From contig NZ_CP039451.1 of NCBI RefSeq assembly GCF_004843725.1, positions 1,548,501 through 1,612,500 of the forward strand: 64,000 nucleotides of DNA, written 5' to 3'. This document shows positions 42,764 through 61,000 of this stretch, one piece after another. The DNA is from Psychroserpens sp. NJDZ02. Lineage in GTDB: Bacteria; Bacteroidota; Bacteroidia; Flavobacteriales; Flavobacteriaceae. The notes beneath the pieces are model-generated. The model saw only the letters and a program-made list of their open reading frames with translations. It searched no databases and was not told the DNA's origin. Position 1 is the first letter of the stretch; the number at the start of each line of letters is the position of its first letter. The position numbers were made by a program, and so were the translations under genes.

Positions 42764-44350
42764 TTAACCTTTAGAAACAATTAACTTCATTCCTGGTTTC
42801 AATTTAGTACCACTAATATCGTTCCAATCTCTAATATTTTGAACAGAAACACCAGTCAATTTTTGAGAAATACTCCAAAGACTATCGCCTTGCTGTACTG
42901 TATAGCTCTTTCCGTTAATTGGTTTTTTACTTTTTTTTGTTGAAGCTGAAGCTTTTGAACGACTTACAGAAACCCCATTTCTAGGATAAATAGTTAATCG
43001 TTGTCCAATTTTTAGGTTATTATTTCTTAAACCATTCCATTGTTTAATTTGACTTACCCGAACACCAAATTTTCTGGCAATTTTCCCGAGGTAATCACCC
43101 TGCTGGACCTTATACCTTGTTTTTGTTTCTGAATCTTGAAACTTAGGTAATGGTTTTTCACGCTTATCTAATTCGGCTTTAGCCTGAGCATATAATTGGT
43201 CTTCATTATTAACAAAAGACCCCATAATACTCCTTGGCAAACGTAAAGTGTAGTTTTTACCTTCAATAAAAGGAATAACATCTAATTTGTAAGCCGGATT
43301 TAAAAACTGAAGCGTTTCCACCTCTACACCTGTATACTCTGACACTTGATCTAAAGTAATCATCTGTTTGACGTGTATTGTATCCGTCTCAATCAAATGA
43401 AACTCGGGTTTGTATTGCATAAAACCATGCTCTTTAGCGTATTCAAAAATATACATTGTTGCTAAAAAAGCGGGCACATAACCAGCTGTTTCACGTGGTA
43501 AATTTGGTCTAATATTCCAATAATTCTGATAACCGCCAGAGCGTCTTATTGCCTTACTTACATTACCTGGCCCAGAGTTATATGCTGCTAATGCTAAATC
43601 CCAATCACCAAATAATTTATACAATTTAGATAAGTATTGTGATGCTGCAATAGTTGCTTTTATAGGATCGCTACGTTCATCCACATAACTACTAACATCC
43701 AAACCGTACTCTTTACCTGTAGCAAACATAAATTGCCATAAACCTGTCGCTCCCACTCTAGAGCGTGCGCGTGGTTTTAAAGCAGATTCTACTATTGCTA
43801 GATATTTCATTTCTAACGGAATGTCATAATTATCTAACTCGCGCTCAAACATTGGGAAGTAATAATTACTTAAACCCATTAAACGTTCAAACGAACGGTG
43901 ACGTCTTTTTAAAAAGGACTTTATAACACTTTCTAACTCAGGATTATATTCCACATTAAAAGGGGTTCTAGCATTTAAACGCTGTAATCTTGCTTTTAAC
44001 GTATCTGTTGTTAACTCTGGATAATCAACTGCGTTATATTTTAATCCCGAAACATCTCTATAAATGGTATCATACAGTGTATTACTGTATAGCTCTTCCA
44101 TCCATTTTTTATCTATATCTGCAGCAAACTCATGATCTTGTAAGACCTTAGGAAGCTCCACTAGATCAATAGTTTTAATCGCTTTTTTAAAATAAGTTTG
44201 ACCATCGATTATTGTATCGATAACATAGTCTTGTCCTTCTTGTAATTGATCTTGCCTTAATCTAGTTTGTTGGTTAGTATCTTGGCCTAATCCAAAACCT
44301 AATCCAAAAATCATTAACAAGAAAGTAATATATATTTTTACTTGATGCAT
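42764..44350 (-). CDS. MltD-like lytic transglycosylase with two LysM domains
   Basis: 528 residues. Signal peptide about 1-22. SLT domain around 160-290: DIPLEMKYLAIVESALKP (catalytic Glu in VESALKP), GATGLWQFMFATGKEYGL and LALAAYNSGPGNVSKAI. Two LysM repeats follow: YKVQQGDYLGKIARKFGV (about 412) and YTVQQGDSLWSISQKLTG (about 480). Cleaves glycan strands of peptidoglycan in the periplasm; the LysM repeats anchor it to the wall. Sits between the DUF4837 gene and pgk on one strand. Confidence 0.93.
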   Translation of the reverse strand: MHQVKIYITFLLMIFGLGFGLGQDTNQQTRLRQDQLQEGQDYVIDTIIDGQTYFKKAIKTIDLVELPKVLQDHEFAADIDKKWMEELYSNTLYDTIYRDVSGLKYNAVDYPELTTDTLKARLQRLNARTPFNVEYNPELESVIKSFLKRRHRSFERLMGLSNYYFPMFERELDNYDIPLEMKYLAIVESALKPRARSRVGATGLWQFMFATGKEYGLDVSSYVDERSDPIKATIAASQYLSKLYKLFGDWDLALAAYNSGPGNVSKAIRRSGGYQNYWNIRPNLPRETAGYVPAFLATMYIFEYAKEHGFMQYKPEFHLIETDTIHVKQMITLDQVSEYTGVEVETLQFLNPAYKLDVIPFIEGKNYTLRLPRSIMGSFVNNEDQLYAQAKAELDKREKPLPKFQDSETKTRYKVQQGDYLGKIARKFGVRVSQIKQWNGLRNNNLKIGQRLTIYPRNGVSVSRSKASASTKKSKKPINGKSYTVQQGDSLWSISQKLTGVSVQNIRDWNDISGTKLKPGMKLIVSKG

Positions 44351-48450: not shown

Positions 48451-49368
48451 ATGTCTTCAAAAAAAGCGTTTTTTGTCATTATTAATCCTGTTTCTGGTAA
48501 TGGGAAAGGCAAAAAAATATGGACAACCGTACAACGTAAATTACAATACACTTATAACATTGCGTATCAATTTACAACTCACACCAATCATGAAATTGAA
48601 ATAACGTTAGCCGCCATAAAAAAGGGTTTTAAACATTTTATAATAATTGGTGGTGATGGTACTCTTAATAAATTTATTACAGGTGTTTTTAGTCAAAATG
48701 TTGTCGATTCTAAAAATATAACGTTTGGTGTTATAGCCATAGGAACAGGTAATGATTGGATAAAAACACACCACATTCCTACAAACATAACTAAAGCCTT
48801 AGCTCTTATAATTAACGGAAAAACAGATACGCAAGATATTGGTTGTGTAAGCTATTTAAAGTCTAGCCTACCTAACACCTATTTTATAAATCTCTGTGGG
48901 ATTGGTTTTGATGGCTTGGTTGTCGATATTGTAAGTAACAACAGAACATTTGGTAAATTAACCTATCTATTAGGAGCCTTAAAAGCCTTATTTCTTTTTA
49001 AACCATTTAATCTTAATTTGACTCAAGATTTAAAGACTAAATCATATAAATCTTGCTTTATGATTCAGTTAGGTATTTGTAGATACACAGGTTCTGGGAT
49101 GCAACTTACAGAACAACCTAACCACAAAGATGGTCTATTTGACGTCTCTATTGCCACTAAATTGACTAGATGGGATATTATAAAAAACATAGTTGGCCTT
49201 TTTAATGGGAAAATTGTGTTTCATAAAAAAGTCAAGACATTTAAAACCAATCATCTACAATTAAATTTTGATCAAAACAAACCATTAATTCAGGCCGATG
49301 GAGAGTCAATAAAAACTGAAGATATCGATGTATCCATACGCCCTAAAGCCATCAATTTTTATTGTTAA
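48451..49368 (+). CDS. Diacylglycerol/sphingosine-type lipid kinase (YegS/DgkB family)
   Basis: 305 residues. FVIINPVSGNGKGKKIW (nucleotide-binding start), IIIGGDGTLNKFITGV (GGDGT motif near residue 69), GVIAIGTGNDWIKTH and FDGLVVDIVSNN, closing with QADGESIKTEDIDVSI. Phosphorylates a lipid at the inner membrane. It follows holB with a 1-base gap. The exact lipid is not readable. Confidence 0.92.
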   Translation: MSSKKAFFVIINPVSGNGKGKKIWTTVQRKLQYTYNIAYQFTTHTNHEIEITLAAIKKGFKHFIIIGGDGTLNKFITGVFSQNVVDSKNITFGVIAIGTGNDWIKTHHIPTNITKALALIINGKTDTQDIGCVSYLKSSLPNTYFINLCGIGFDGLVVDIVSNNRTFGKLTYLLGALKALFLFKPFNLNLTQDLKTKSYKSCFMIQLGICRYTGSGMQLTEQPNHKDGLFDVSIATKLTRWDIIKNIVGLFNGKIVFHKKVKTFKTNHLQLNFDQNKPLIQADGESIKTEDIDVSIRPKAINFYC

Positions 49369-49412
49369 TTTCTACATTATAAATTAATACCTTTAAACCA
49401 CAATCACCATAC

Positions 49413-49808
49413 ATGGACAATCTAATAAATAACATTACCCAGATATTACTACTTGCTTTTTTAGCCATCACTTTTTTGCAATCAGGATTAGACAAGGCAC
49501 TAGATTGGAAGGCTACTATTACTTGGTTAAAAGGTCATTTTTCAAAAACCTTTATGGCCAAAATAGTACCCTTAAATGTTGGAATTATTTTTGTTTTAGA
49601 AACTATAGCTGGTGTATTTGCGGTCATTGGCATCTGTACTATAGTAATTGATGGTAACACTGTATTTGGCTATTATTCGGCTATTTTAAGCGCGATTGTG
49701 CTACTTTTATTATTATTCGGGCAACGTGTAGCAAAAGACTATGAAGGCGCAAAAACAATAGTTGTATACTTTATTCCAACAATTATCGCTTTGTACTTAT
49801 TAAAGTAA
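49413..49808 (+). CDS. DoxX family membrane protein
   Basis: 131 residues with four hydrophobic segments (about 7-20, 48-70, 80-105, 112-130) and the DoxX-type QSGLDKALDWKATITWLKGHF. Small inner-membrane protein of unclear function; some relatives link to redox stress. Last gene of the holB group. Confidence 0.82.
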   Translation: MDNLINNITQILLLAFLAITFLQSGLDKALDWKATITWLKGHFSKTFMAKIVPLNVGIIFVLETIAGVFAVIGICTIVIDGNTVFGYYSAILSAIVLLLLLFGQRVAKDYEGAKTIVVYFIPTIIALYLLK

Positions 49809-50733
49809 ACGACCAACACGTCTTATTTACTATAAAACAACCATTTCCTCCATTAAGACTCATTTATAATTGGTATTTTATGTTGCACATAAACGTCATA
49901 AAAGTTTTCTGTTTGAAACTTATATACATAAAACAACGTTTGGTTTTCTTCAATTAAAATAACGCTCCCATCACCACTTTTTTTTTAGACGATTTTACCA
50001 AGCTATTGCATGTCTAAGTTTAGTAAATAACTTGGCTATTACATAATATGTTTTTATACCACCTTTATGTAAACAGTATTTATCTCTATAAGTAATTTAA
50101 AATACTGACTACCCAGCATTTTACTCTCTAATTTCTAATCTATTTTAAAACAATTTTAATGAATAAATCACACCCCTTTAGCTATTAGTTCTTACAGAAC
50201 TGAGTCTCCAGAAAACTTTAAGATATACTTATAATTAACTATTTAGTAACAAGTTAAGAACTAAAACTTTTACTTTTTTTGGTAATTATTTAACTATAAT
50301 CGACCGTTCAAACGATTACTAAATTACACCTCTAACTAATATCGATACAACTTCTACCTTAGACTGAACAATTTATAGTTATTGATCCCTGTTGAAGTAC
50401 TAATTTTAGCACAAATAATTATTTATCATTCACCCTTAAGACAATCACTATGTTCTTATGTGATTTAGACTTATCCCAAGACATAACAACTGTATTTTAG
50501 AGACAATATGTCCTATCTCAAAAAAAATAAAAATCAACTTCTTGAATTGCAGTAAAAATTAGACAAACCAATGCTGTTTACGTTTAATAATAAATCCAAC
50601 TTTGTACGTAAAATTGGTTAAAACTATTTCTTTATTAGTGGTTAACGTAAATGATCCAATATCAACACATAATGAATTATCAGTACCAAGTTAATGATTT
50701 TGAATACTTTGATTTGAAGATGATATTAGATTA

Positions 50734-50919
50734 CTAAAAAAACAAAACCTCTTCATTACTCTTTAATCCTTTTAAACTTCTAATTAAAAGATCAAGCCAC
50801 ACCTTTAAAAATCCACTAAAAGTTGCGCTACAATTAAGTGTTTTTACTGCCATGTTATACACAACATACAACACCCAACCAACTCCACTAACAACAAACA
50901 AAAAAGCGCTCTGAAGCAC
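50734..50919 (-). pseudogene. Remnant of an adhesin-head-like gene
   Basis: Open for 61 codons. FVVSGVGWVLYVVYNMAVKT aligns with SGGSGGGWMLYVVYQSP of the intact gene at 45593, and SATFSGFLKVWLDLL aligns with ISTYHGFALVNKEEPVDL in the same order. Further along (50640-50700, other frame) NSLCVDIGSFTL matches NTLGFDIAKLDI. Start, signal peptide and the rest of the protein are missing. Best read as a decayed relative of that protein or of a large surface adhesin. Confidence 0.5.
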
Positions 50920-51410
50920 TATTATTTACTATGAACCATCGACTAACAAACGTCTTAGCCTTAGGTCAATATTTTAATATATAAGCAAAACAAATAAAGG
51001 GAGAATTTAAAGCAAAAGGCGAGAGTATAGCACAAACGAAAAAGAAGCAAACCTAATAGCTTTTTGTAATTATAATCAGCCAATTTAAGTCTAATTCTAA
51101 TCCATAAATTTGTGTTTAATTAATCATTATCTTAAAAGTAGAACTGAGGAATTCACCTCTCATAATTCTTTTTATAAAACTATAATTAACTAACTTATAA
51201 AAAGTAGTATGCGTCATGTATTTCTGATTATCTGCTAATTAAAGTATTGCTAGACTTCAAGAACAGGCAGCAAAACTCTATGCATATCAGAACTTACCAA
51301 GTCAATATCAGCATTAATTAGCTCATCATCCTTGCACCGCCTACAAGCGTCATTGCACAGTATATTGCCTCACTATTCCATGATAATCCATAAATATTAA
51401 TGATTGGTGC

Positions 51411-51503
51411 ATCTTAAAAGAATGGTTTGCTCAGCAGGTCTAACAGTTAGAAGGAGAAGACCACAACAACGGATAAGAGCAGGTTTTTAATGAGTTTTTT
51501 TAA
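51411..51503 (+). pseudogene. Coding-like remnant with internal stops
   Basis: One frame reads ILKEWFAQQV-stop-QLEGEDHNNG-stop-EQVFNEFF-stop. The stops are TAA at 51441-51443, 51474-51476 and 51501-51503. The amino-acid composition between stops looks like a real C-terminus. Family not recognised. Confidence 0.25.
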
Positions 51504-51560
51504 CCCAACTAAATATAAATATCTAAAATAACCACACTGATATTTAAACTAAAATATCAT

Positions 51561-51595
51561 AAAAAAAGGCGATTAACTGTTGTTAATCGCCTTTT
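51561..51595 (-). terminator. Hairpin terminator of the ompH-like gene
   Basis: Perfect 14-bp arms AAAAGGCGATTAAC and GTTAATCGCCTTTT with a TGTT loop, followed by T residues on the minus strand, 24 bases after the stop of the gene at 51619. Confidence 0.92.
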
Positions 51596-51618
51596 GAAAA
51601 TGTAGTATTTCTTATTTT

Positions 51619-52131
51619 CTATTTTTTATAAGAAGCATTTAAACCTTCAATAATAGTATTAGAAAGATCATTATCTGATTTACCAAATAAAACAGAAGGA
51701 CTAGCATCACTTGTACCTAATATATAGTCGTAACCATTGCTTTTACCGTACTCATTTACATAGGTTTTTACCTTAGAAATTAAAGAATCCATTTCTTTTT
51801 GAAAAGGTTCTGAAATTTTTTGTTGTTCAGCTTGCAGTTGTTGTTGTAACATTTGCTGTTTTTGACCTAACTCGTCATATTTAGCCTGAGCTGTTTTAGC
51901 TGGCATACTTTGTGCATCCATTTGAAACTTTTGAGCTTGCATTTGAAAATCTTTACCTAGACTATCTCTCCTCTGATTGAATTTATCTAAAGTTGTTTTA
52001 TAATTTTCTTCCAGATCTAATTTTTCCTGAATTTTGTTAATTACTTCACCATTATCAATAAAAGCAATTTTTTGTTTTTGGCATGATGTAAAAACAGAAG
52101 CCACTAATAGTAATCCGAATACTTTTTTCAT
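51619..52131 (-). CDS. OmpH/Skp-like periplasmic chaperone, lipoprotein form
   Basis: 170 residues. N-terminus MKKVFGLLLVASVFTSC has a lipobox (Cys17). KIAFIDNGEVINKIQEKL begins the OmpH domain, then a long coiled coil rich in Gln/Lys (about 50-125), and a compact end LISKVKTYVNEYGKSNGYDYILG. Skp-type proteins hold unfolded outer-membrane proteins in the periplasm; the lipid anchor is a variation. It has its own promoter box and terminator, so it is probably a single-gene unit. Confidence 0.88.
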   Translation of the reverse strand: MKKVFGLLLVASVFTSCQKQKIAFIDNGEVINKIQEKLDLEENYKTTLDKFNQRRDSLGKDFQMQAQKFQMDAQSMPAKTAQAKYDELGQKQQMLQQQLQAEQQKISEPFQKEMDSLISKVKTYVNEYGKSNGYDYILGTSDASPSVLFGKSDNDLSNTIIEGLNASYKK

Positions 52132-52154
52132 TTTATATTTTTTATGAATTTGAG

Positions 52155-52162
52155 CAAATGTA
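52155..52162 (-). promoter_or_regulatory. TAnnTTTG box for the ompH-like gene
   Basis: TACATTTG on the minus strand, 23 bases before the ATG at 52131; matches the Bacteroidota -7 consensus. Confidence 0.45.
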
Positions 52163-52361
52163 AATAATTAACTAAACTCAATTTCATTTTTTTTATAGAT
52201 TTTACACTAAATAACTATTTCTTATGGTAAATAATATCAATTATAAGCAAACACTATTAAAAACGACCTCAAATAAAGCCCTTTAAGCTACTTTTAAAAA
52301 AACCTAATGTGATTACACATTACAAGACCACATCATCTAACCAGGTTTCTTATATTTATTT

Positions 52362-53252
52362 TTAGCTGTTTTTAAGCACATAAATCAACGAAGAATACTC
52401 TCCTGAAGACTTTGCTTTGTAATTTGACATGAATCCTGACCTGAATGCCTTGAAGACTTTCATCCTACCAGATTTATATTTTTCCGATAATAAACTAACA
52501 TAATACGAATCAAAGAACATTGGATTTGTACTTTCAACCGTCATACTAATACTATAAAACAAGTTAGAAATTGATTTTTGATCAAAATGCCATAAGTGTC
52601 TAGGCACATCATATGCCGCCCAAAACTCTTTATAATAGATAGCATCATAACTTTTATGATTAGGAACAGCAATTAATAAGACCCCATTTGGCTTAAGTAA
52701 AGACTTAAGAACAGCTATCTTTTCTTCTAAATCTGGAACATGTTCTAGTACATGCCACAAGGTAATCACATCAAAACTCTTTTTTTCGAACGTATTTAGG
52801 TATTTTGATTCAAAAACAGAGCTATTAGTTTTACTATTTGCTATACCTCTAGCAGCCTCATTTGGTTCAATTCCCGCAACATTCCAGCCATTACTTTGAG
52901 CAGTTTTAAGAAAATCACCCGTTCCAGATCCAAAATCTAATAGCCTTTTTCCCTCTAATTCAAACGAATTAATCAGGTTTAATTTGCGCTTTAAGGACAC
53001 CTTTCGGATAGCATGATACACCTTTTCAAACAAGTTTCTTCTAGAATCTGTATGAGAAATATAGTTTTCTGTTTGATAATACTCTCCCAATTTACCTAAT
53101 GGCGGTTTAGGGATTGTCTTCAAATAGCCATACTTTTTATGTTCTAACAAATGAAATTCTTCACCAGAAACAGAGTGATCCTTTACTTTAAACAACACTT
53201 TTTTACCATTTTCACTTACCACAATCAATACTATTTTAGATAGCTTACCCAA
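52362..53252 (-). CDS. Class I SAM-dependent methyltransferase
   Basis: Up to 296 residues. SAM-binding motif LLDFGSGTGDFLKTA (about residue 104), WNVAGIEPNEAARGIA, FDVITLWHVLEHVPD and VLLIAVPNHKSYD. The first domain, HSVSGEEFHLLEHKKYGYLKTIPKP, resembles the short N-terminal region of flavobacterial methyltransferases of this kind. The true start is doubtful: the TTG at 53252 gives 18 extra residues, while GTG at 53196-53198 or the next TTG would begin just before FKVKDHSVSG, which I favour. Substrate unknown. It stands alone beside the parS region. Confidence 0.8.
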   Translation of the reverse strand: MGKLSKIVLIVVSENGKKVLFKVKDHSVSGEEFHLLEHKKYGYLKTIPKPPLGKLGEYYQTENYISHTDSRRNLFEKVYHAIRKVSLKRKLNLINSFELEGKRLLDFGSGTGDFLKTAQSNGWNVAGIEPNEAARGIANSKTNSSVFESKYLNTFEKKSFDVITLWHVLEHVPDLEEKIAVLKSLLKPNGVLLIAVPNHKSYDAIYYKEFWAAYDVPRHLWHFDQKSISNLFYSISMTVESTNPMFFDSYYVSLLSEKYKSGRMKVFKAFRSGFMSNYKAKSSGEYSSLIYVLKNS

Positions 53253-53298
53253 AAAAGGCAGCTTATTTATACTTTTTTTTATTTTAATAACGACTCAT

Positions 53299-53314
53299 TG
53301 TTCCACGAGGAACA
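53299..53314. other. parS: parS-like site 1
   Basis: TGTTCCACGAGGAACA. Known chromosomal parS is a 16-bp near-palindrome, TGTTNCACGTGNAACA; here one centre base differs (GAGG for GTGG). Same sequence as sites 2-4. Confidence 0.8.
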
Positions 53315-53739
53315 TTAAACCACAAATAAACAACTCTATTTTCACATGCACCCACTTATTAATAGTAATAACTATCCTAAAAAAACAACATAATTTCAAT
53401 TTAAACTAAGAATTTATGGCATGTAAACTAATAAAAAAGACGCTTATAAGACTACTTACGCCCCAATAAAACCTTTAAATATGTCTTTACAAAACTACTT
53501 AACGCAAGATTATCCTATCACAACAGAGCGTCATCCAGCAACACGCTTTGCTTTTAATTCTTTACACACCTCTGTATTTACCCTATAATATTTAAAAAAA
53601 CAACTACAGAAAGACACAAACCACTCGATAAACACATTCTTTATAGAACTTCAAACAGCTAAAAAAAACCTTCTGCAAGCCAAAAACAATCTCAAAAAAA
53701 GCTTTTTACCCACTCTTTACACATCAAATAACACACCAT
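53299..53739 (+). repeat. parS-carrying tandem repeat, unit 1
   Basis: 441 bases from parS site 1 up to site 2. It aligns along its length with unit 2; shared ordered blocks include CTATTTTCACA, TTTAAATATGTC, TTACAAAAC, CCTCTGTATTTA and AAGCCAAAAA. Confidence 0.75.
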
Positions 53740-53759
53740 TGTTCCACGAGGAACATTAA
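53481..53759 (+). pseudogene. Decayed small ORF inside repeat unit 1
   Basis: ATG at 53481 (MSLQNYLTQDYPITTE), TAA at codon 36 (53586-53588), then the same frame stays open for 56 more codons (YLKKQLQKDTNHS ... LLQAKNNLKKSF) to a TAA at 53757-53759 inside parS site 2. The equivalent ATG in unit 2 (53925) opens only 12 codons. Looks like a once-coding sequence copied and decaying; it could also be chance. Confidence 0.3.
53740..53755. other. parS: parS-like site 2
   Basis: TGTTCCACGAGGAACA, 441 bases after site 1, at the junction between repeat units 1 and 2. Confidence 0.8.
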
Positions 53760-54183
53760 AAAACTCCAATAAACAAATCTATTTTCACACCCACCGACCT
53801 ATTATTAGTATTCATTACCATAAAAAAACATCTTAATATCAACTTAAACCTAAGACTTCCGTCATATAAACCAATCAAAAAAGGCGTTTATAACACGACT
53901 TACGGTTAACTAAACCCTTTAAATATGTCATTACAAAACGACTTAGTGAACGAATACTCATGATAAAAGAGCCCAATACGCCAATAATATTAGCTTTTAA
54001 TTTATAATAAACCTCTGTATTTATACTCTAATACTAAAAAAAAGCATCTAAATAAAGACACAAATAACGCGATAAACAACACTCTTTAAAGAACTTTAAA
54101 CAGTTAAACTAGCCCTCCGTAAGCCAAAAAAACCAAAAAAAACGAGTTCTCGCCACTCCTCTATACACTAAACAAAAGCAAAT
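53740..54183 (+). repeat. parS-carrying tandem repeat, unit 2
   Basis: 444 bases from parS site 2 up to site 3, homologous to unit 1 with many substitutions and small indels. Confidence 0.75.
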
Positions 54184-54199
54184 TGTTCCACGAGGAACA
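54184..54199. other. parS: parS-like site 3
   Basis: TGTTCCACGAGGAACA, followed by CTAAAA much as at the other GAGG sites. Confidence 0.8.
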
Positions 54200-54412
54200 C
54201 TAAAACATGAATAATAACCAGCGTTATACCCCATGTTATCCTAAACTATCGACACTTTAATCAACAGAAAAAACATATAAAAAACGAATAAATGAAACAA
54301 AAAAAAACACTTATTACAAACATTTAAAACTACAAAACCGCACATGTTCTAGGACTTTTAAGAGCTAATAAATCATAATATATTCACTTTACCACTACAA
54401 ATAGAGTCAAAA

Positions 54413-54428
54413 TGTTCCACGAGGAACA
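54413..54428. other. parS: parS-like site 4
   Basis: TGTTCCACGAGGAACA followed by CTAAAA; 229 bases after site 3. Confidence 0.8.
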
Positions 54429-55552
54429 CTAAAAATCCATAAATTAAGAAATAAAAACACCCATCAATTCACGTCAATCACCGCTGAAATCAATAAAAAA
54501 ACATCCATACTAGGAGTAAAACCACAACTCAAAAAAGAGTATTTCACCAATTTAGACTACTAAATAAGTCATTATTTAACCCATTTCTAAACCAATAAAG
54601 CGCAAAATTCATCCCATTTTAACAACAAACAATACAAAAATATTACCCGAGAAACACACAACACTAGTAAATACACAACGTTATTTTAAATTACAAGCAA
54701 CCCAATTAACGACATAACAGTCAAAATATAATCAATTAAAAGAAATAAATAACCTTTAGAAAAACAATTTATAGCGCGATTTAATCGAAAACAACATCAC
54801 GAAACCTACCATATAGGGGTAAAAAAAACAACAATTAAGCCTTATAGTTTGCCATAATACAAGATGCAAATCAAAATAAACGACCAAAATAAACCGCAAA
54901 ATATCGACTTCCTACTCCTCTATTAAACTATTTGAGATAAAATAAGAGCATAATTACAGACTGTAAAAGCTTAAAAACTGAACAAAAAAACACTAAAAAC
55001 TACAGGCATTCTAGATCAAAAAACTTTAAATCGAGGCATTTAATTGACCATTACAGGGTAAATAAAACATAGCAATTCAAATATTTCAGCCTCTATTAAG
55101 ACACTCTTCTTAAAAACATAAACGAAAAAAAACAACTAAAAAACACACAAACCCAATCGAAAACGGCTTTAAAAAAACCATATATTCCATCTAAATGAAC
55201 CAAAAAAAATACTTAAAAACAATACAAAAGGATTAAACAAACAACATCAAAAAAAGGTAAATTAGATATAATTAGACTTAAAAAAAAAGACCTAAACAAC
55301 GTTCCAAAACTCATCTTAATCCTTCATTACAAACTCTAAGAAAAAGAATGTTTAAACGCCTACAAAAAGAAATAACACTCACAAAAAGAAAAGAAGCCAT
55401 AGCAATAAACACATAAATAAGCCTTAAAAAAAAAAGAACAACAAACAGTCCAAATAGACAAAACAAACGACCTAATTAAACAAACTAATCTCCCATATTC
55501 TCTTAATACAAACCCGAAATGCAACACCATTTATAAACAATAGAAACAAAAA

Positions 55553-55584
55553 AAAGGGAACGTTCCACGTGGAACGTTCCCTTT
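55553..55584 (-). terminator. parS: Perfect 32-bp palindrome: parS site 5 inside the mnmG terminator
   Basis: Arms AAAGGGAACGTTCCAC and GTGGAACGTTCCCTTT with no loop. The centre (55561-55576) is CGTTCCACGTGGAACG, a perfect parS core. On the minus strand it lies 11 bases after the mnmG stop and runs into a T tract (55548-55555 are all A on plus), so it can also end mnmG transcription. Confidence 0.82.
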
Positions 55585-55595
55585 AAAACTTAAAT

Positions 55596-57467
55596 CTATC
55601 TTCCCATATACACTAACAAAACGGAAATATCAGAAGGAGAAACCCCACTAATTCTTGAGGCCTGAGATATAGTTACCGGTTGTATTTTACCCAACTTTTC
55701 CCTTGCTTCAAAACTCATAGATTGTAATTTAGAGTAATCAAAACCTTCAGGTATCTTAATGTTTTCCAGTCGTGTTAACTTATCTGCATTACTCTTTTCC
55801 TTAGCAATATACCCAGAATATTTAACCTGGATTTCGGCTTGCTCAATGATTTCATTATCTAAATCATGATCATTAATATACTGAGAAACCGACGCCACTT
55901 GCTTCATATCCTCTATAGTCACATTAGGTCGCGCAAACATTTTAAACATCTTATCCTGTTGTCTAATCGCAGTAGAACCCTTAGCTTCCAATGCTGGATT
56001 TATCTCGTCTGGCGTCACACTTGTATCTCTAAAAAACTGCACAAACTTCTCTGCCGCATCATGCTTCTCCTCCATCCTACGCAAACGTTTCTCTGATGCC
56101 AAACCTAAATCAAAACCTTTTGGCGTTAACCTAATATCCCCATTATCCTGACGCAACAACGTTCTATATTCAGCACGAGAAGTAAACATACGATAAGGCT
56201 CTTCTGTTCCTTTTGTAATTAAATCATCTACTAACACCCCTATATAAGCCTCATCTCTCTTAAGAATAAAAGGATCGCGTTCTTGAACTTTTAACGCAGC
56301 ATTTATACCCGCCATTAATCCTTGCGATGCTGCTTCCTCATAACCCGTCGTTCCATTAATTTGACCTGCAAAAAACAAACCATCAACCAATTTAGTTTCT
56401 AACGTATGCTTTAATTGTGTCGGCGGAAAATAATCATACTCTATAGCATAACCAGGTCTGAAAAATTTCACATTTTCAAATCCAACCACAGACCGCAATG
56501 CTTTAAATTGAATATCCTCCGGCAACGAAGTTGAGAAACCATTTATATAATATTCAACCGTATTCCAACCTTCAGGCTCGACAAATAATTGGTGACTATT
56601 TTTATCCGCAAAACGATTTATTTTATCTTCAATAGACGGACAATACCTTGGCCCTAAACTTTTAATTCGACCATTAAACATTGGCGACCGATCAAAACCT
56701 TCACGAAGTAAATCATGAACCTTTTGACTTGTATGAGACATGTGACAAGACCGTTGATGCGTTAATGGTTTTGTCGTATCCAAATATGAAAATTTTTCTG
56801 GATTAACATCTCCAGGTTGCTCGACCATTTTAGAAAAATCTAAAGAACGACCATCCACTCTTGGAGGTGTTCCCGTTTTCATTCTACCTGATTCAAAACC
56901 TAAATTAACCAACTGCTCTGTAATACCAGTTGCCGCTCTTTCACCTGCTCTTCCTCCCCCAAAGTTTTTATCTCCAATATGGATTAACCCATTCAAAAAA
57001 GTACCATTAGTAAGCACAACTGTTTTAGATTTAATCTTAACACCAAGAGACGTTACTACTCCACCAACTTTTCCGTTTTCAACAATTAAACCAGAAACCA
57101 TTTCTTGATAAAAATCTAAATTTTTAGTCTGCTCCAAAATCAAACGCCAATCTTCTGCAAAACGCATTCTATCACTTTGCACCCTTGGACTCCACATTGC
57201 AGGTCCTTTTGATTTATTCAACATTTTAAATTGAATTGCAGAAGTATCACTCACAATCCCAGAGTAACCTCCAAGCGCATCAATCTCTCTAACAATTTGT
57301 CCTTTTGCAATTCCACCCATCGCAGGATTACAAGACATCTGTGCAATGTTTTGTAAATTCATAGTGATAAGCAAAGTCTTGCTTCCCATGTTAGCTGCCG
57401 ATGCTGCAGCCTCACTTCCTGCATGACCACCACCAACGACTATTACATCATAAACTTCGTTAAACAT
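55596..57467 (-). CDS. mnmG: tRNA uridine-5-carboxymethylaminomethyl modification enzyme MnmG (GidA)
   Basis: 623 residues, normal length. FAD motif VIVVGGGHAGSEAAASAANMG, SCNPAMGGIAKGQIVREIDALGG, GPAMWSPRVQSDRM, GTPPRVDGRSLDFS, GLFFAGQINGTTGYEEAASQGL and EYRTLLRQDNGDIRLT; C-terminal tRNA-binding helical part to VSPSDISVLLVYMGR. With MnmE it modifies the wobble uridine of certain tRNAs. gidA lies near the replication origin in many bacteria; the parS sites on both sides of it here agree with that. Confidence 0.97.
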   Translation of the reverse strand: MFNEVYDVIVVGGGHAGSEAAASAANMGSKTLLITMNLQNIAQMSCNPAMGGIAKGQIVREIDALGGYSGIVSDTSAIQFKMLNKSKGPAMWSPRVQSDRMRFAEDWRLILEQTKNLDFYQEMVSGLIVENGKVGGVVTSLGVKIKSKTVVLTNGTFLNGLIHIGDKNFGGGRAGERAATGITEQLVNLGFESGRMKTGTPPRVDGRSLDFSKMVEQPGDVNPEKFSYLDTTKPLTHQRSCHMSHTSQKVHDLLREGFDRSPMFNGRIKSLGPRYCPSIEDKINRFADKNSHQLFVEPEGWNTVEYYINGFSTSLPEDIQFKALRSVVGFENVKFFRPGYAIEYDYFPPTQLKHTLETKLVDGLFFAGQINGTTGYEEAASQGLMAGINAALKVQERDPFILKRDEAYIGVLVDDLITKGTEEPYRMFTSRAEYRTLLRQDNGDIRLTPKGFDLGLASEKRLRRMEEKHDAAEKFVQFFRDTSVTPDEINPALEAKGSTAIRQQDKMFKMFARPNVTIEDMKQVASVSQYINDHDLDNEIIEQAEIQVKYSGYIAKEKSNADKLTRLENIKIPEGFDYSKLQSMSFEAREKLGKIQPVTISQASRISGVSPSDISVLLVYMGR

Positions 57468-57541
57468 AATATCTGTTTTACTAAATCATAAAACGTTTAG
57501 AAAACCTAAACATAAAATAATTTAAATATTTTTTTAATTAT

Positions 57542-57557
57542 TGTTCCACGTGGAACG
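57542..57557. other. parS: parS-like site 6
   Basis: TGTTCCACGTGGAACG with perfect CACGTG centre, in the 135-base gap between ybeY and mnmG, upstream of the mnmG start. It could also overlap the mnmG promoter region. Confidence 0.82.
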
Positions 57558-57602
57558 TTTCTATTTTTATATAAAATTAAGCTTGAAATTTTTCTACGCT
57601 AA

Positions 57603-58019
57603 TTACATCGCTTTTAGAATTGCTAAAGCTTCATCTTCTTTACTTCGCATTACAATAGCATCAGCATCCGTTTTATCTTTATATCCACAATAATGTAAAA
57701 TACCATGAACGATTACACGATGTAACTCGTCAACAAATTCAACCTCAAAATCCTTCGCATTATCCTCCACTCTTTCAATAGAAATAAAAATATCGCCTTG
57801 TAGTGTTTTTCCTACTGAGTAATCAAAACTGATTACATCAGTTAAAGTGTCATGTTGTAAAAACTCAACATTTAATTTATGGAGATAATCGTCATTACAA
57901 AACACATAGTTTATCTCGTCCTCCTTGCAGTTTTCCTTATTTATTATAGTAGATATCCATTTCGTGATTTTAGCGTCATCTAGACCCTTAAAATCGATTT
58001 CGTAATTAAAACTAATCAT
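57603..58019 (-). CDS. ybeY: rRNA maturation endoribonuclease YbeY
   Basis: 138 residues, a typical length. INYVFCNDDYLHKLNVEFLQHD and DVISFDYS are family blocks; metal site HGILHYCGYKDKTDAD at 105-120. His105 and His109 are kept, but the third position, usually His (GYDH), is Asp115, a variation I recall as common in Bacteroidota. Takes part in 16S rRNA 3' processing and ribosome quality control. Start overlaps the DUF4175 gene by 8 bases. Confidence 0.92.
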   Translation of the reverse strand: MISFNYEIDFKGLDDAKITKWISTIINKENCKEDEINYVFCNDDYLHKLNVEFLQHDTLTDVISFDYSVGKTLQGDIFISIERVEDNAKDFEVEFVDELHRVIVHGILHYCGYKDKTDADAIVMRSKEDEALAILKAM

Positions 58020-61000
58020 TTTTCTGTTTAAAGTACTGTTGTGCTTTTTGTTTATACAATTCTTGCAAAGGTAATGTTTGCTTATTCAATATTTCTGTAG
58101 TGTTAAAATATTGTTTCGCTTTATCCAATTGATTAGTCGTTGTCTTTTTAAAATCTTTAGAATTTGTTTCAGATTCTCGTTTTTGTTCCTGTCCCTGTTC
58201 CAAGGTTGCATTTTCTAATTTTAGCAATTGATGCTGTAAATTTTTCATTTTACTTAAAGTCTCATTAGTAAAACCGTTATTTATAAGATCCATCTCCACC
58301 TCTTCCATATCTCTAAGAAGTTGTCTAGCATCTCTACTTTCACCCAAACCATCCCTATCCAATCTTTCTTCTAAAGCTTGACGTAACATTTGTTGTTCTT
58401 GATAAATTTTAAATAACTCACCATTGACATCTTCACTAAATCCGTTTGTTCCTTTTTGATCACCGCCTTGCCCCTCTTTCCCGTCTTTACCAGAATTACC
58501 TTGCTTTCCATCCTTACCACCTTCTCCTTCACCCTCACCTTCTCCTTCTTTACCTTTTTCTCCCGCTTCACCTTTATCTCCATCCTCATCTTTTTCGCCA
58601 TCTTTACCCTTTTTAACACCTTTCTCCATTTTTTTAGCCAATGCTTCCTGACTAATAATAATGTCCGGCATAGGCGTGCCTCCCTCGCCTTCTCCTGGCA
58701 TTGGCATACCCATTTGATTTTGTAGATTATCTAATGCATCACTTAAAAAATCTGCTAAGTTATTTGCTCCAGTAACCACGTATTGCTGAGATGCGACCCC
58801 TTGAAAAATTCCATTTTCAGAGAACTCTTCTAAAGATTTATCTATATAATAATACACTTCATTAAGTTCCCTATTTATATCTTCAGAAAATTTAGGTTGT
58901 CGTAATGATATTGCAAACAAACTATCATCGACATGTTCAAAATGTGTTCGCAACTCCTTCTGTTTCTTAAGATAATTAGCATACTCACTATGATTGATTT
59001 CAATACTTTTAAATTGATTCATTAAGGCTTCCTCATTCATAGAAAAGATGACAAGATTATCCAAAATTTGACGTAACATCACTATATCTTCTTCCAATTG
59101 ATCCTTAGCAGCTCCAGACATTTGCATTTGCATACTCATGCTCATCTTTTTCATTTTCTGAGCTGCGTTTTTCTGTTTCTTTTTAGCAGACTCTTGCTTC
59201 TCTTGTTTTTCCTGTTGATCTTGAGCATCTTGTTTATCCTTTAAATCCTCGCTCGCCTCCTTTTGCTCTTCTTTGATGTTATCCTCGTTGTTTTTATCAC
59301 GCGGCACATCCATAGGTTTTTTTAAATCGTTATTATCCTTTTCTAACTGTTGTAATTGCTCCTGTAACTCGTCAAACTTCTTATTAATATCGTCCTGCTT
59401 TTCTTTTGTATTATCCTCTGCTTTAGCATTTGCTAATTTATCTTGCTCTTTTGCCAATTTATCAAGCTCCTCAGCAATCTTCTCCATTTTTTTTGTCACA
59501 TAATATCTTTTAGTCAACTCCACTAATTGCTCCAAACTCCGTTTTTGACTTTTAGCTTTTTTAGCCAAATTATCCAATCGCTTGGAAAAATTTTCTTTAC
59601 TAAACTTCTCTCTAAGTTTCTCCAACTCGTCCAAAAGTTTTTCATCTTGTTCAAGCTGTTCCTCGTTATCTTTTAATCGTTCTTTTAAATCCTCCTTAAA
59701 TTGATCTTTTTCCTGCTTATCCTTTTGAAATTCATTTAAATTATCTTTCAACTTTTTATTAAATTGCTTCATCATCTGATCCTGCTCTTTTTGACGTTTT
59801 AAAAAGCTTTCCAACTTTTTCTTATCGTTAAAATTAAGCTCCGACTTTTCTTTTTGAGTTTTAGACAATTCTTGCAATTCTTTCTGCTGCTTATCAAATT
59901 TTTCTAAAGACTGACTTAAGTTCTGAATCGTTTGATTCTGTTCTTGTAATTGCTTTTTTTCTTCTTCATCTTGGGTACGTTTCCTATAACTAAAAACGGA
60001 ACTTTTGGTACGCTTATTTTTATTTACTGCATCATTGTCAAACACCTCAAAATACAAATCGTAAGACTTACCATCTTCAATAGGTAGGTTATTAGGAAAT
60101 GCACTAATAAATTGATCAAAATTAGTTTTAGAAACAGGTATATTAACAACTTTCTTTTCGCCTTCATTTCCGCTAGGATAATACACCAACTGCAATTTAT
60201 TTAAACCATAATCATCTGTAACCTCTCCCCTAAAATACAAAGATTGCTGATCCAAACTATCCGTTTTAACTTCCACCTTAAGTTCTGGATACTGGTCTTT
60301 TATAACCTGAATGCTATAAGCTAAAGTTTCGTAATTTTTTAAGTCCTTATTACTTGTACTAATGTTATAATTAAAGTTGTTATAGACACTTTTGGAAGCT
60401 TCAAATAGACCTACTTTATCACTTGAAAATGCTATGGTATCAAGTCCAATTAGTTCTACTTGGTCCGTAGCCTTAGTTTGTAATTGCCATGCTACTTTTG
60501 TCCCTTGAGGTACAATAGCATTACCATTACCTTTTAAAACCTCATCCTGTTTATTAGTATAATTTGGGTAATCCAAAACCATACTAAAACTAAGCAACGT
60601 TGGCACCTCAACCACCTGTAAAGTATATGGTTTAGACGTGATTCCGTTAGCAGATAACGTAAATGTAATATCTTGGTTTGGTTGTTCAAAAACATATTCA
60701 AAACTACCTGCTTGGCGTTGCTGTAAATAATAAGTTTCGCTATTAAAAGTAATCTGTGCGTCTTCCGGAATAACAGCACCTTCCGTTGTTGCCATTAGTC
60801 TAAATTCTTTATTTTGCGTTGTCTGCAAGTCTTCATTCAACACAAAAAATTGAAAAGGTGCTGGTGCCTCATAAGCCGTTTGATAGTTAACCACACGCTC
60901 ATAGCTGTCACTAAACCAATTCATTTTACCAGAAATAGCAGAAATAAGTAGTATTACTAAAGGAATAGCAGCATATTTTAAATATTTAATATTCTGTTTA

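Follow-up and report, generated by a model that had tools for sequence, protein, structure and literature searches.

A stretch of 64,000 nucleotides from Psychroserpens sp. NJDZ02 (positions 1,548,501 to 1,612,500 of contig NZ_CP039451.1, written here as C1:1548501-1612500 and called the window) carries six 16-bp sites that resemble parS, the DNA element bound by ParB in ParABS chromosome segregation systems, around the gene mnmG (gidA). The genome is a single contig of 4,319,537 bp. Two of the sites have a canonical CACGTG centre and stand at the two ends of mnmG, and the other four, called GAGG sites after the variant that they share, lie in a long noncoding spacer downstream of the gene. 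The region is laid out as follows.

53299..53314, plus strand: putative GAGG-type parS site 1 (TGTTCCACGAGGAACA), exact; same bases in the sister genome G006.
53740..53755, plus strand: putative GAGG-type parS site 2, exact; same bases in G006.
54184..54199, plus strand: putative GAGG-type parS site 3, exact; same bases in G006.
54413..54428, plus strand: putative GAGG-type parS site 4, exact; one substitution in G006.
54641..54656, plus strand: possible decayed fifth site (TATTACCCGAGAAACA), 228 bp past site 4; three mismatches, may be chance.
55561..55576, no strand: putative canonical-centre parS (CGTTCCACGTGGAACG), just after mnmG; slot and all 16 bases identical in 8 of 8 genus genomes fetched.
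57542..57557, no strand: putative canonical-centre parS (TGTTCCACGTGGAACG), in the gap that separates mnmG from its upstream neighbour ybeY; slot conserved.
55596..57467, minus strand: mnmG (gidA), matching TIGR00136 at 840 bits; canonical sites on either side.
53253..55552, no strand: noncoding spacer of 2.3 kb that separates mnmG from the methyltransferase gene; a length shared only by G006.
57603..58019, minus strand: ybeY, the upstream neighbour, matching TIGR00043 at 110 bits.
52362..53252, minus strand: class I methyltransferase gene, the downstream neighbour; an open reading frame (ORF), UbiG-like, under the curated cut-off.

An earlier note, made from the letters of this DNA alone, had located six such sites and no other in the window, and had named a scatter of the motif over the genome as the finding that would speak against a centromere. 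All six were recovered at exactly the positions it gave, and the motif is not scattered: when the whole genome was scanned with up to two mismatches to TGTTCCACGTGGAACA, only these six places were returned, and a control with the reversed pattern returned none. With up to three mismatches to TGTTCCACGWGGAACA, the window itself gave 16 matches counted by strand, where 0.33 would be expected; a count of 16 was not reached in any of 100 shuffles. The sites at 55561 and 57542 hold the 14-bp core GTTNCACGTGNAAC exactly, their outer bases being two and one off, respectively, from the 16-bp palindromic consensus TGTTNCACGTGNAACA. Each GAGG site has one mismatch to the same full consensus and is thereby asymmetric, with one half, GTTCCAC, intact and the other, GTTCCTC, bearing the single change. 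Looser matches to TGTTNCACGTGNAACA, with two mismatches, occur in the window at 43487 and 48427. The former (43487-43502) was rejected as a seventh site, as it encodes a conserved LPRET motif within a 528-amino-acid ORF, presumably of a lytic-transglycosylase-like product, and is the same in all 12 places compared (the window and the loci of 11 relatives).

Across the family, two predicted canonical parS sites around mnmG are the standard. A site lies on both sides of the gene in 73 of 80 named mnmG loci (by a criterion that admits some sites with one or two mismatches), only upstream in five, only downstream in one and on neither side in one. If both heptamers are required to be exact, the 80 loci hold 189 sites, every one of them in the range from -1500 to +4000 relative to the mnmG start; mnmG itself and the remainder of the fetched DNA contain no such site. 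There are two of them in 53 loci, three in 12, one in eight, four to eight in six and none in one. Genome-wide, the exact core is found in 60 of 60 family genomes, taken one per genus at a completeness of at least 95%, and these hold 126 exact cores against seven for the reversed pattern. The whole canonical set amounts to two sites in 54 of these genera (three in four, five in one and one in one), in the loci examined mostly one at each end of mnmG. Among the matches listed, which cover part of the 60 genomes, the members of a pair mostly stand about 1.9-2.1 kb apart, which is the length of mnmG plus margins. Within the genus sample the canonical pair is present in nine of ten genomes, the tenth being 75% complete. 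Judged by MnmG, the closest named relative is Olleya marilimosa (94%).

The cluster lies near the replication origin as placed by GC skew. Third-codon-position GC (GC3) skew, sampled in 40 stretches of which 39 were readable and one was all N, is negative in all sampled stretches from 0 to 1.62 Mb and about zero or weakly positive near 1.65 Mb. Between 1.75 and 3.7 Mb it is positive, a few weak deviations aside, and from 3.8 Mb onwards it returns to negative values. The raw cumulative skew has its minimum at about 1.644 Mb, about 40 kb from the cluster. When GC3 skew is taken gene by gene, the minimum is reached at 1.631 Mb, which is about 24 kb from the cluster and adjoins a 701-bp intergenic gap. 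The origin is thereby placed at about 1.63-1.65 Mb, and the gap is the following feature.

C1:1630224-1630924 (L146:17724-18424 in the fetched locus), outside the window: probable oriC gap, 701 bp, 21% GC, upstream of rpiB.

The gap is conserved upstream of the same gene, which we take from its protein sequence to be rpiB, in three of three relatives examined (G006, G008 and G005), where the distance from the rpiB start to the parS-type site upstream of mnmG is 23.4, 21.2 and 19.0 kb, respectively. It contains the DnaA-box-like sequence TTATCCACA in this genome as in G006, and TTATTCACA in G008 and G005. In this genome it also has GTTAATAAC/TTATTAACA motifs; three copies of TTATTAACA, as found here, are attained in 12 of 1633 windows across the 164 kb compared. 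From skew and conservation, this gap, 24 kb from the mnmG sites, is likely to be oriC. Neither dnaA nor parB marks the origin in this genome. The dnaA gene, at C1:415, lies 1.6 Mb from the skew switch and about 1.63 Mb from the proposed oriC and was rejected as an origin marker, and parB, with a parA-like gene adjoining, is at 2.75 Mb, which puts parAB 1.1 Mb from the sites. The same holds for dnaA in G006, where the skew switches at 0.60-0.69 Mb, the sites are at 0.71 Mb and dnaA is at 2.29 Mb. There is a precedent for an origin that is marked by parS and skew but not by dnaA (PMC10197239). The earlier note had proposed a chromosome centromere with the origin nearby, to be mapped against GC skew and dnaA. 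The proposal is supported by the distances to the two skew minima, by the lack of such sites elsewhere in the genome and by the parS-type pair of the family; its choice of dnaA as a marker does not suit this genome. The sites cluster near the replication origin, as parS sites do.

The genome has one ParB-family gene, which scores above the cut-off of TIGR00180 and whose product retains the DNA-contact motifs GK.R and GH.R as found in aligned ParBs of solved structure; against the NCBIfam Noc model it reaches 238 bits, under the cut-off of 315. The ParA-like protein encoded next to it matches ParA models, none of the 25 matches listed being above its cut-off. The genome thus appears to encode the partners that parS sites call for, a ParB with ParB-type contact residues and a ParA, and the cluster is very probably a parS centromere of a known kind in an unusual layout, with binding predicted from sequence. 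One could instead suppose that the sites bind a different regulator which shares the CACGTG core by chance, and the deviation of the GAGG sites from the ParB consensus would suit such a protein. However, the sites are exclusive to the skew-origin region and paired around mnmG family-wide, and the contact motifs of the only ParB-family protein match them, so that we consider a different regulator very improbable.

The four GAGG sites spread partly through a 443-bp tandem duplication, which can be seen for sites 1-3 from the homologous spacers that separate them.

53315..53739, plus strand: spacer of repeat unit 1, homologous to that of unit 2, 76% identity (319/421).
53756..54183, plus strand: spacer of repeat unit 2, homologous to that of unit 1.

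In seven other genus genomes examined, the next gene begins about 30-800 bp after mnmG. The 2.3-kb spacer does not seem to code for protein, a possibility rejected on a longest ORF of 56 amino acids and out-of-frame insertions and deletions relative to G006. Acquisition of the spacer from another genus was likewise rejected, as a search of 149 genomes gave a full-length match only in G006 and, in 27 further genomes, only fragments of less than 100 bp. No tRNA was matched in the window, and no Rfam family in 49000-59000.

It might be argued that only the two palindromic sites are parS and that the GAGG array is a relic, made of decaying duplicated copies which ParB no longer binds. The off-consensus base is present in four of four GAGG sites, a degenerate fifth unit is found at 54641, site 4 of G006 carries a second change, and the remaining eight genus genomes, among them one with a completeness of only 75%, were searched without finding the array. 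Moreover, the exact GAGG site occurs in just two of 397 genomes sampled family-wide, both of this genus; this sample misses the Polaribacter clade, so that the variant is rare outside that clade. However, the sites within the repeat units are 100% identical although the unit spacers have fallen to 76%, and between the two sister species there are 256 differences in 2181 positions outside the sites against one in 64 within the four GAGG sites. Taken alone, this constraint is modest (P about 0.02 for at least three of four sites unchanged, judged on windows of the same spacer).

A further argument against decay comes from the Polaribacter clade, where GAGG is the regular second site. Two of the named mnmG loci, one of Polaribacter and one of UBA2540, carry the exact GAGG site in the slot after mnmG. 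Among 78 genomes of the Polaribacter genus, a match with at most one mismatch to the GAGG site is present in 61 and an exact one in 44, the control giving none. We fetched 30 loci of this clade, of which 21 (from the 44 genomes) have the exact site and nine an inexact one, five of the nine being without mnmG in the fetched DNA. In 21 of the 21 exact loci the site lies beside mnmG, 12-92 bp past its last codon as extrapolated from the alignment. Of 40 Polaribacter-clade genomes searched for canonical cores, 34 have one, four none, one two and one three, giving 39 sites against five for the reversed control. An exact GAGG site is present in 21 of the 40, and in each of these a canonical site lies 1,911-2,102 bp away on the same contig. 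From these counts, the usual bracket in the clade is a canonical site upstream and a GAGG site downstream of mnmG. A fixed orientation of the asymmetric site was rejected, as it is reversed in five of the 21 loci. The same variant standing in another clade argues that GAGG is more than an accident of duplication, and its recurrence there is strong comparative evidence that it may function as parS. From comparison of the genomes, the variant in the window would either have arisen by convergence with that of another genus or be of equal age, and it appears to have been kept by selection at the parS slot. We therefore consider a relic improbable. Other variants with a change in one half also stand beside mnmG, namely TGTTCCACATGGAACA in Kordia, Tenacibaculum and Flavobacterium loci.

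As a separate observation, five Polaribacter-clade loci (L251, L255, L266, L270 and L271) contain a second recurrent site, TGTTCCACAAGGAACA, with mostly similar flanks. There is no mnmG in the fetched DNA of these loci, and several of the sites are about 4.85 kb from a like site.

For the base shared by the GAGG sites, the earlier note had offered either duplication or a lineage-specific preference of ParB; duplication is borne out for sites 1-3, and the preference is not supported by the helix-turn-helix segment, in which no change is confined to GAGG carriers. We aligned 19 of 22 ParB matches, omitting two fragments from G007 and a second, distant match from G002. Of the nine genus proteins in the alignment, seven agree fully in this segment, LTQEQMSERVGKKRSTIANYLRLLKL, and the two deviants, G004 and G001, do not carry GAGG sites. 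ParB of this genome differs from that of G006 in one residue. Outside the segment, these two alone among the aligned genus members have methionine in IAMSY and threonine in ILTEKL, and their linker is slightly longer. They also have a threonine in ITI, just past GHGRA, which the other genus members lack and which recurs in ParBs of Algibacter and Bizionia, whose sites are canonical. In published structures the contacts to parS are in and just past the helix-turn-helix segment (PMC7383237). By our own mapping of the numbering, it is base 6 of one half-site that is altered in GAGG. According to the same paper, base 6 is one of the two bases that separate parS from the Noc site, and glycine 201 of ParB is unable to contact it specifically. 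In addition, some ParBs bind single GTTCCAC heptamers (PMC7022226, PMC10419367), which was not observed for B. subtilis ParB (PMC10419367). Together, single-heptamer binding and the base-6 contacts make it plausible that an ordinary ParB tolerates GAGG and, as no helix-turn-helix change matches the variant, such tolerance seems likelier than a new ParB preference.

The downstream canonical site has a second feature.

55553..55584, minus strand: 32-bp perfect palindrome plus T-tract around the 55561 site; RNA fold of -27 kcal/mol, z -7.3.

This is a probable intrinsic terminator of mnmG that would contain the parS core, and it raises the question of whether all the sites are RNA hairpins, that is terminators or processing signals with UGUUCC/GGAACA stems in a transcript continuing from mnmG. 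The palindrome is of textbook form, and the only other terminator-like matches in the region, both weaker, are at site 3 on the minus strand and at 57542 on the plus strand. The total of three is the same as in shuffles (2.7, standard deviation 2.0). However, sites 1, 2 and 4 are not terminator-like, and the two GAGG hairpins that were folded (sites 1 and 3) are weak, with -10.3 and -8.1 kcal/mol and z of about -2. A T-rich tail, with at least six T in the 10 bases past the stem, follows only 10 of 76 downstream sites in relatives, on which we reject a family-wide terminator role; the double use at 55561 is largely a local matter. Furthermore, among the inexact sites of the Polaribacter genus, changes in the would-be loop fall at positions 7-8 in 27 aligned rows and at 9-10 in one, a count that omits the canonical palindrome of G508 and in which the rows are non-independent and some lie away from mnmG. 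Changes at 7-8 and hardly any at 9-10 fit one half-site of a protein rather than a free loop. We think it quite unlikely that the sites act as RNA hairpins.

We regard it as highly probable that this region is the chromosomal centromere, that is the parS locus, of a ParABS system about 24 kb from the probable origin, with the GAGG sites as additional, weaker loading sites. ParB dimers would load at the canonical site on either side of mnmG, close on the DNA with cytidine triphosphate (CTP) and then slide into the flanks, and ParA would move the ParB-coated region once oriC has been copied. In this lineage the downstream side would have been enlarged by the 2.3-kb noncoding spacer with its four asymmetric sites, which most probably offer the same ParB further, weaker places to load. 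Binding and loading of ParB, the relative strength of the sites and any effect on segregation are what we infer from these comparisons.

Several observations weigh against a centromere of this composition, besides the family-wide rarity of the exact GAGG site, the second change in site 4 of G006 and the modest constraint test. Even at one mismatch, 17 of the 78 Polaribacter-clade genomes have no GAGG match, and in four of the 40 searched for it a canonical core is missing. A strong terminator hairpin coincides with the downstream canonical site, and each of the three terminator-like matches in the region (55561, site 3 and 57542) is at a parS-type site, although shuffles give the same number. 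In G008, a single contig of 3.0 Mb, neither GC nor GC3 skew, as sampled, switches clearly at an origin or terminus, possibly as a result of recent rearrangements. Finally, no known condensins were found in two Bacteroidetes (PMC10197239), and recruitment of SMC (structural maintenance of chromosomes) proteins, known elsewhere, may therefore not apply.

Centromeres of Bacteroidota seem to be little described, judging from the few literature matches. A literature search, mostly of titles and abstracts, found no report of parS around mnmG in Bacteroidota or of this layout. A comparative survey of parS sites from 2007 may already note part of it. As far as sequence comparison goes, a lineage-specific array of a one-base-off variant has been added here to the family-standard pair. 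The parS-type pair marks the origin where dnaA does not in two genomes with readable skew. Canonical, one-base-off and arrayed sites that coexist with nearly the same ParB would form a natural series in which any link of site strength and site number to segregation could be measured directly. Tentatively, and as an idea that we ourselves hold to be rather doubtful, the Flavobacteriaceae might have a two-strength centromere, in which one end of mnmG has a fixed canonical parS and the other an evolvable second element, ParB loading being tuned by site strength and copy number without visible change in the helix-turn-helix segment. If this were true, the second element would have become asymmetric half-weakened sites in the Polaribacter clade and an array here.

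Away from the sites, a gap of about 1.8 kb (49809-51618) is without an ORF of 90 amino acids or more. A gene of 589-611 amino acids occupies this slot in six of eight genus relatives fetched, and only short ORFs do so in G006; a gene has perhaps been lost.

Several known systems invite comparison. With the chromosomal parS of ParABS (consensus TGTTNCACGTGNAACA) the region shares the 16-bp core, the cluster near the origin, a single ParB with conserved contact motifs and a parA-like gene adjoining parB. It differs in that the whole set consists of two canonical sites around one gene plus a four-copy asymmetric array, and in that parAB and dnaA are far from the sites and the origin; for comparison, 10 parS sites are given for B. 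subtilis, nine for P. aeruginosa and 22 for M. xanthus (PMC7022226, Table 1). Like the half-parS sites of P. aeruginosa (GTTCCAC/GTTTCAC), the GAGG sites keep one intact GTTCCAC heptamer; however, half-parS sites are unpaired and scattered in their hundreds over the genome (PMC10419367), whereas the GAGG sites have a near-full second half (GTTCCTC), occur at the centromere only and owe their spacing partly to duplication. The Noc site (NBS) is similar in that, by our mapping, the GAGG change is at base 6, one of the two bases distinguishing parS from NBS, but here it is A to T in one half, whereas in NBS base 6 is C and base 1 is A (PMC7383237), and this genome has only one ParB-family gene. 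A further likeness is the array of Flavobacterium sp. MC2016-06 (L071:9338-9704), also a tandem and uniform off-consensus variant beside mnmG, in which TGTTCCACATGGAACA occurs four times without change; its units measure about 117 bp, and the spacers are 82-89% identical. A run of canonical-type sites is seen further upstream of it. It differs from the array described here in its variant base, its position upstream of mnmG, its shorter units and the presence of several canonical sites as well, and it is of independent origin.

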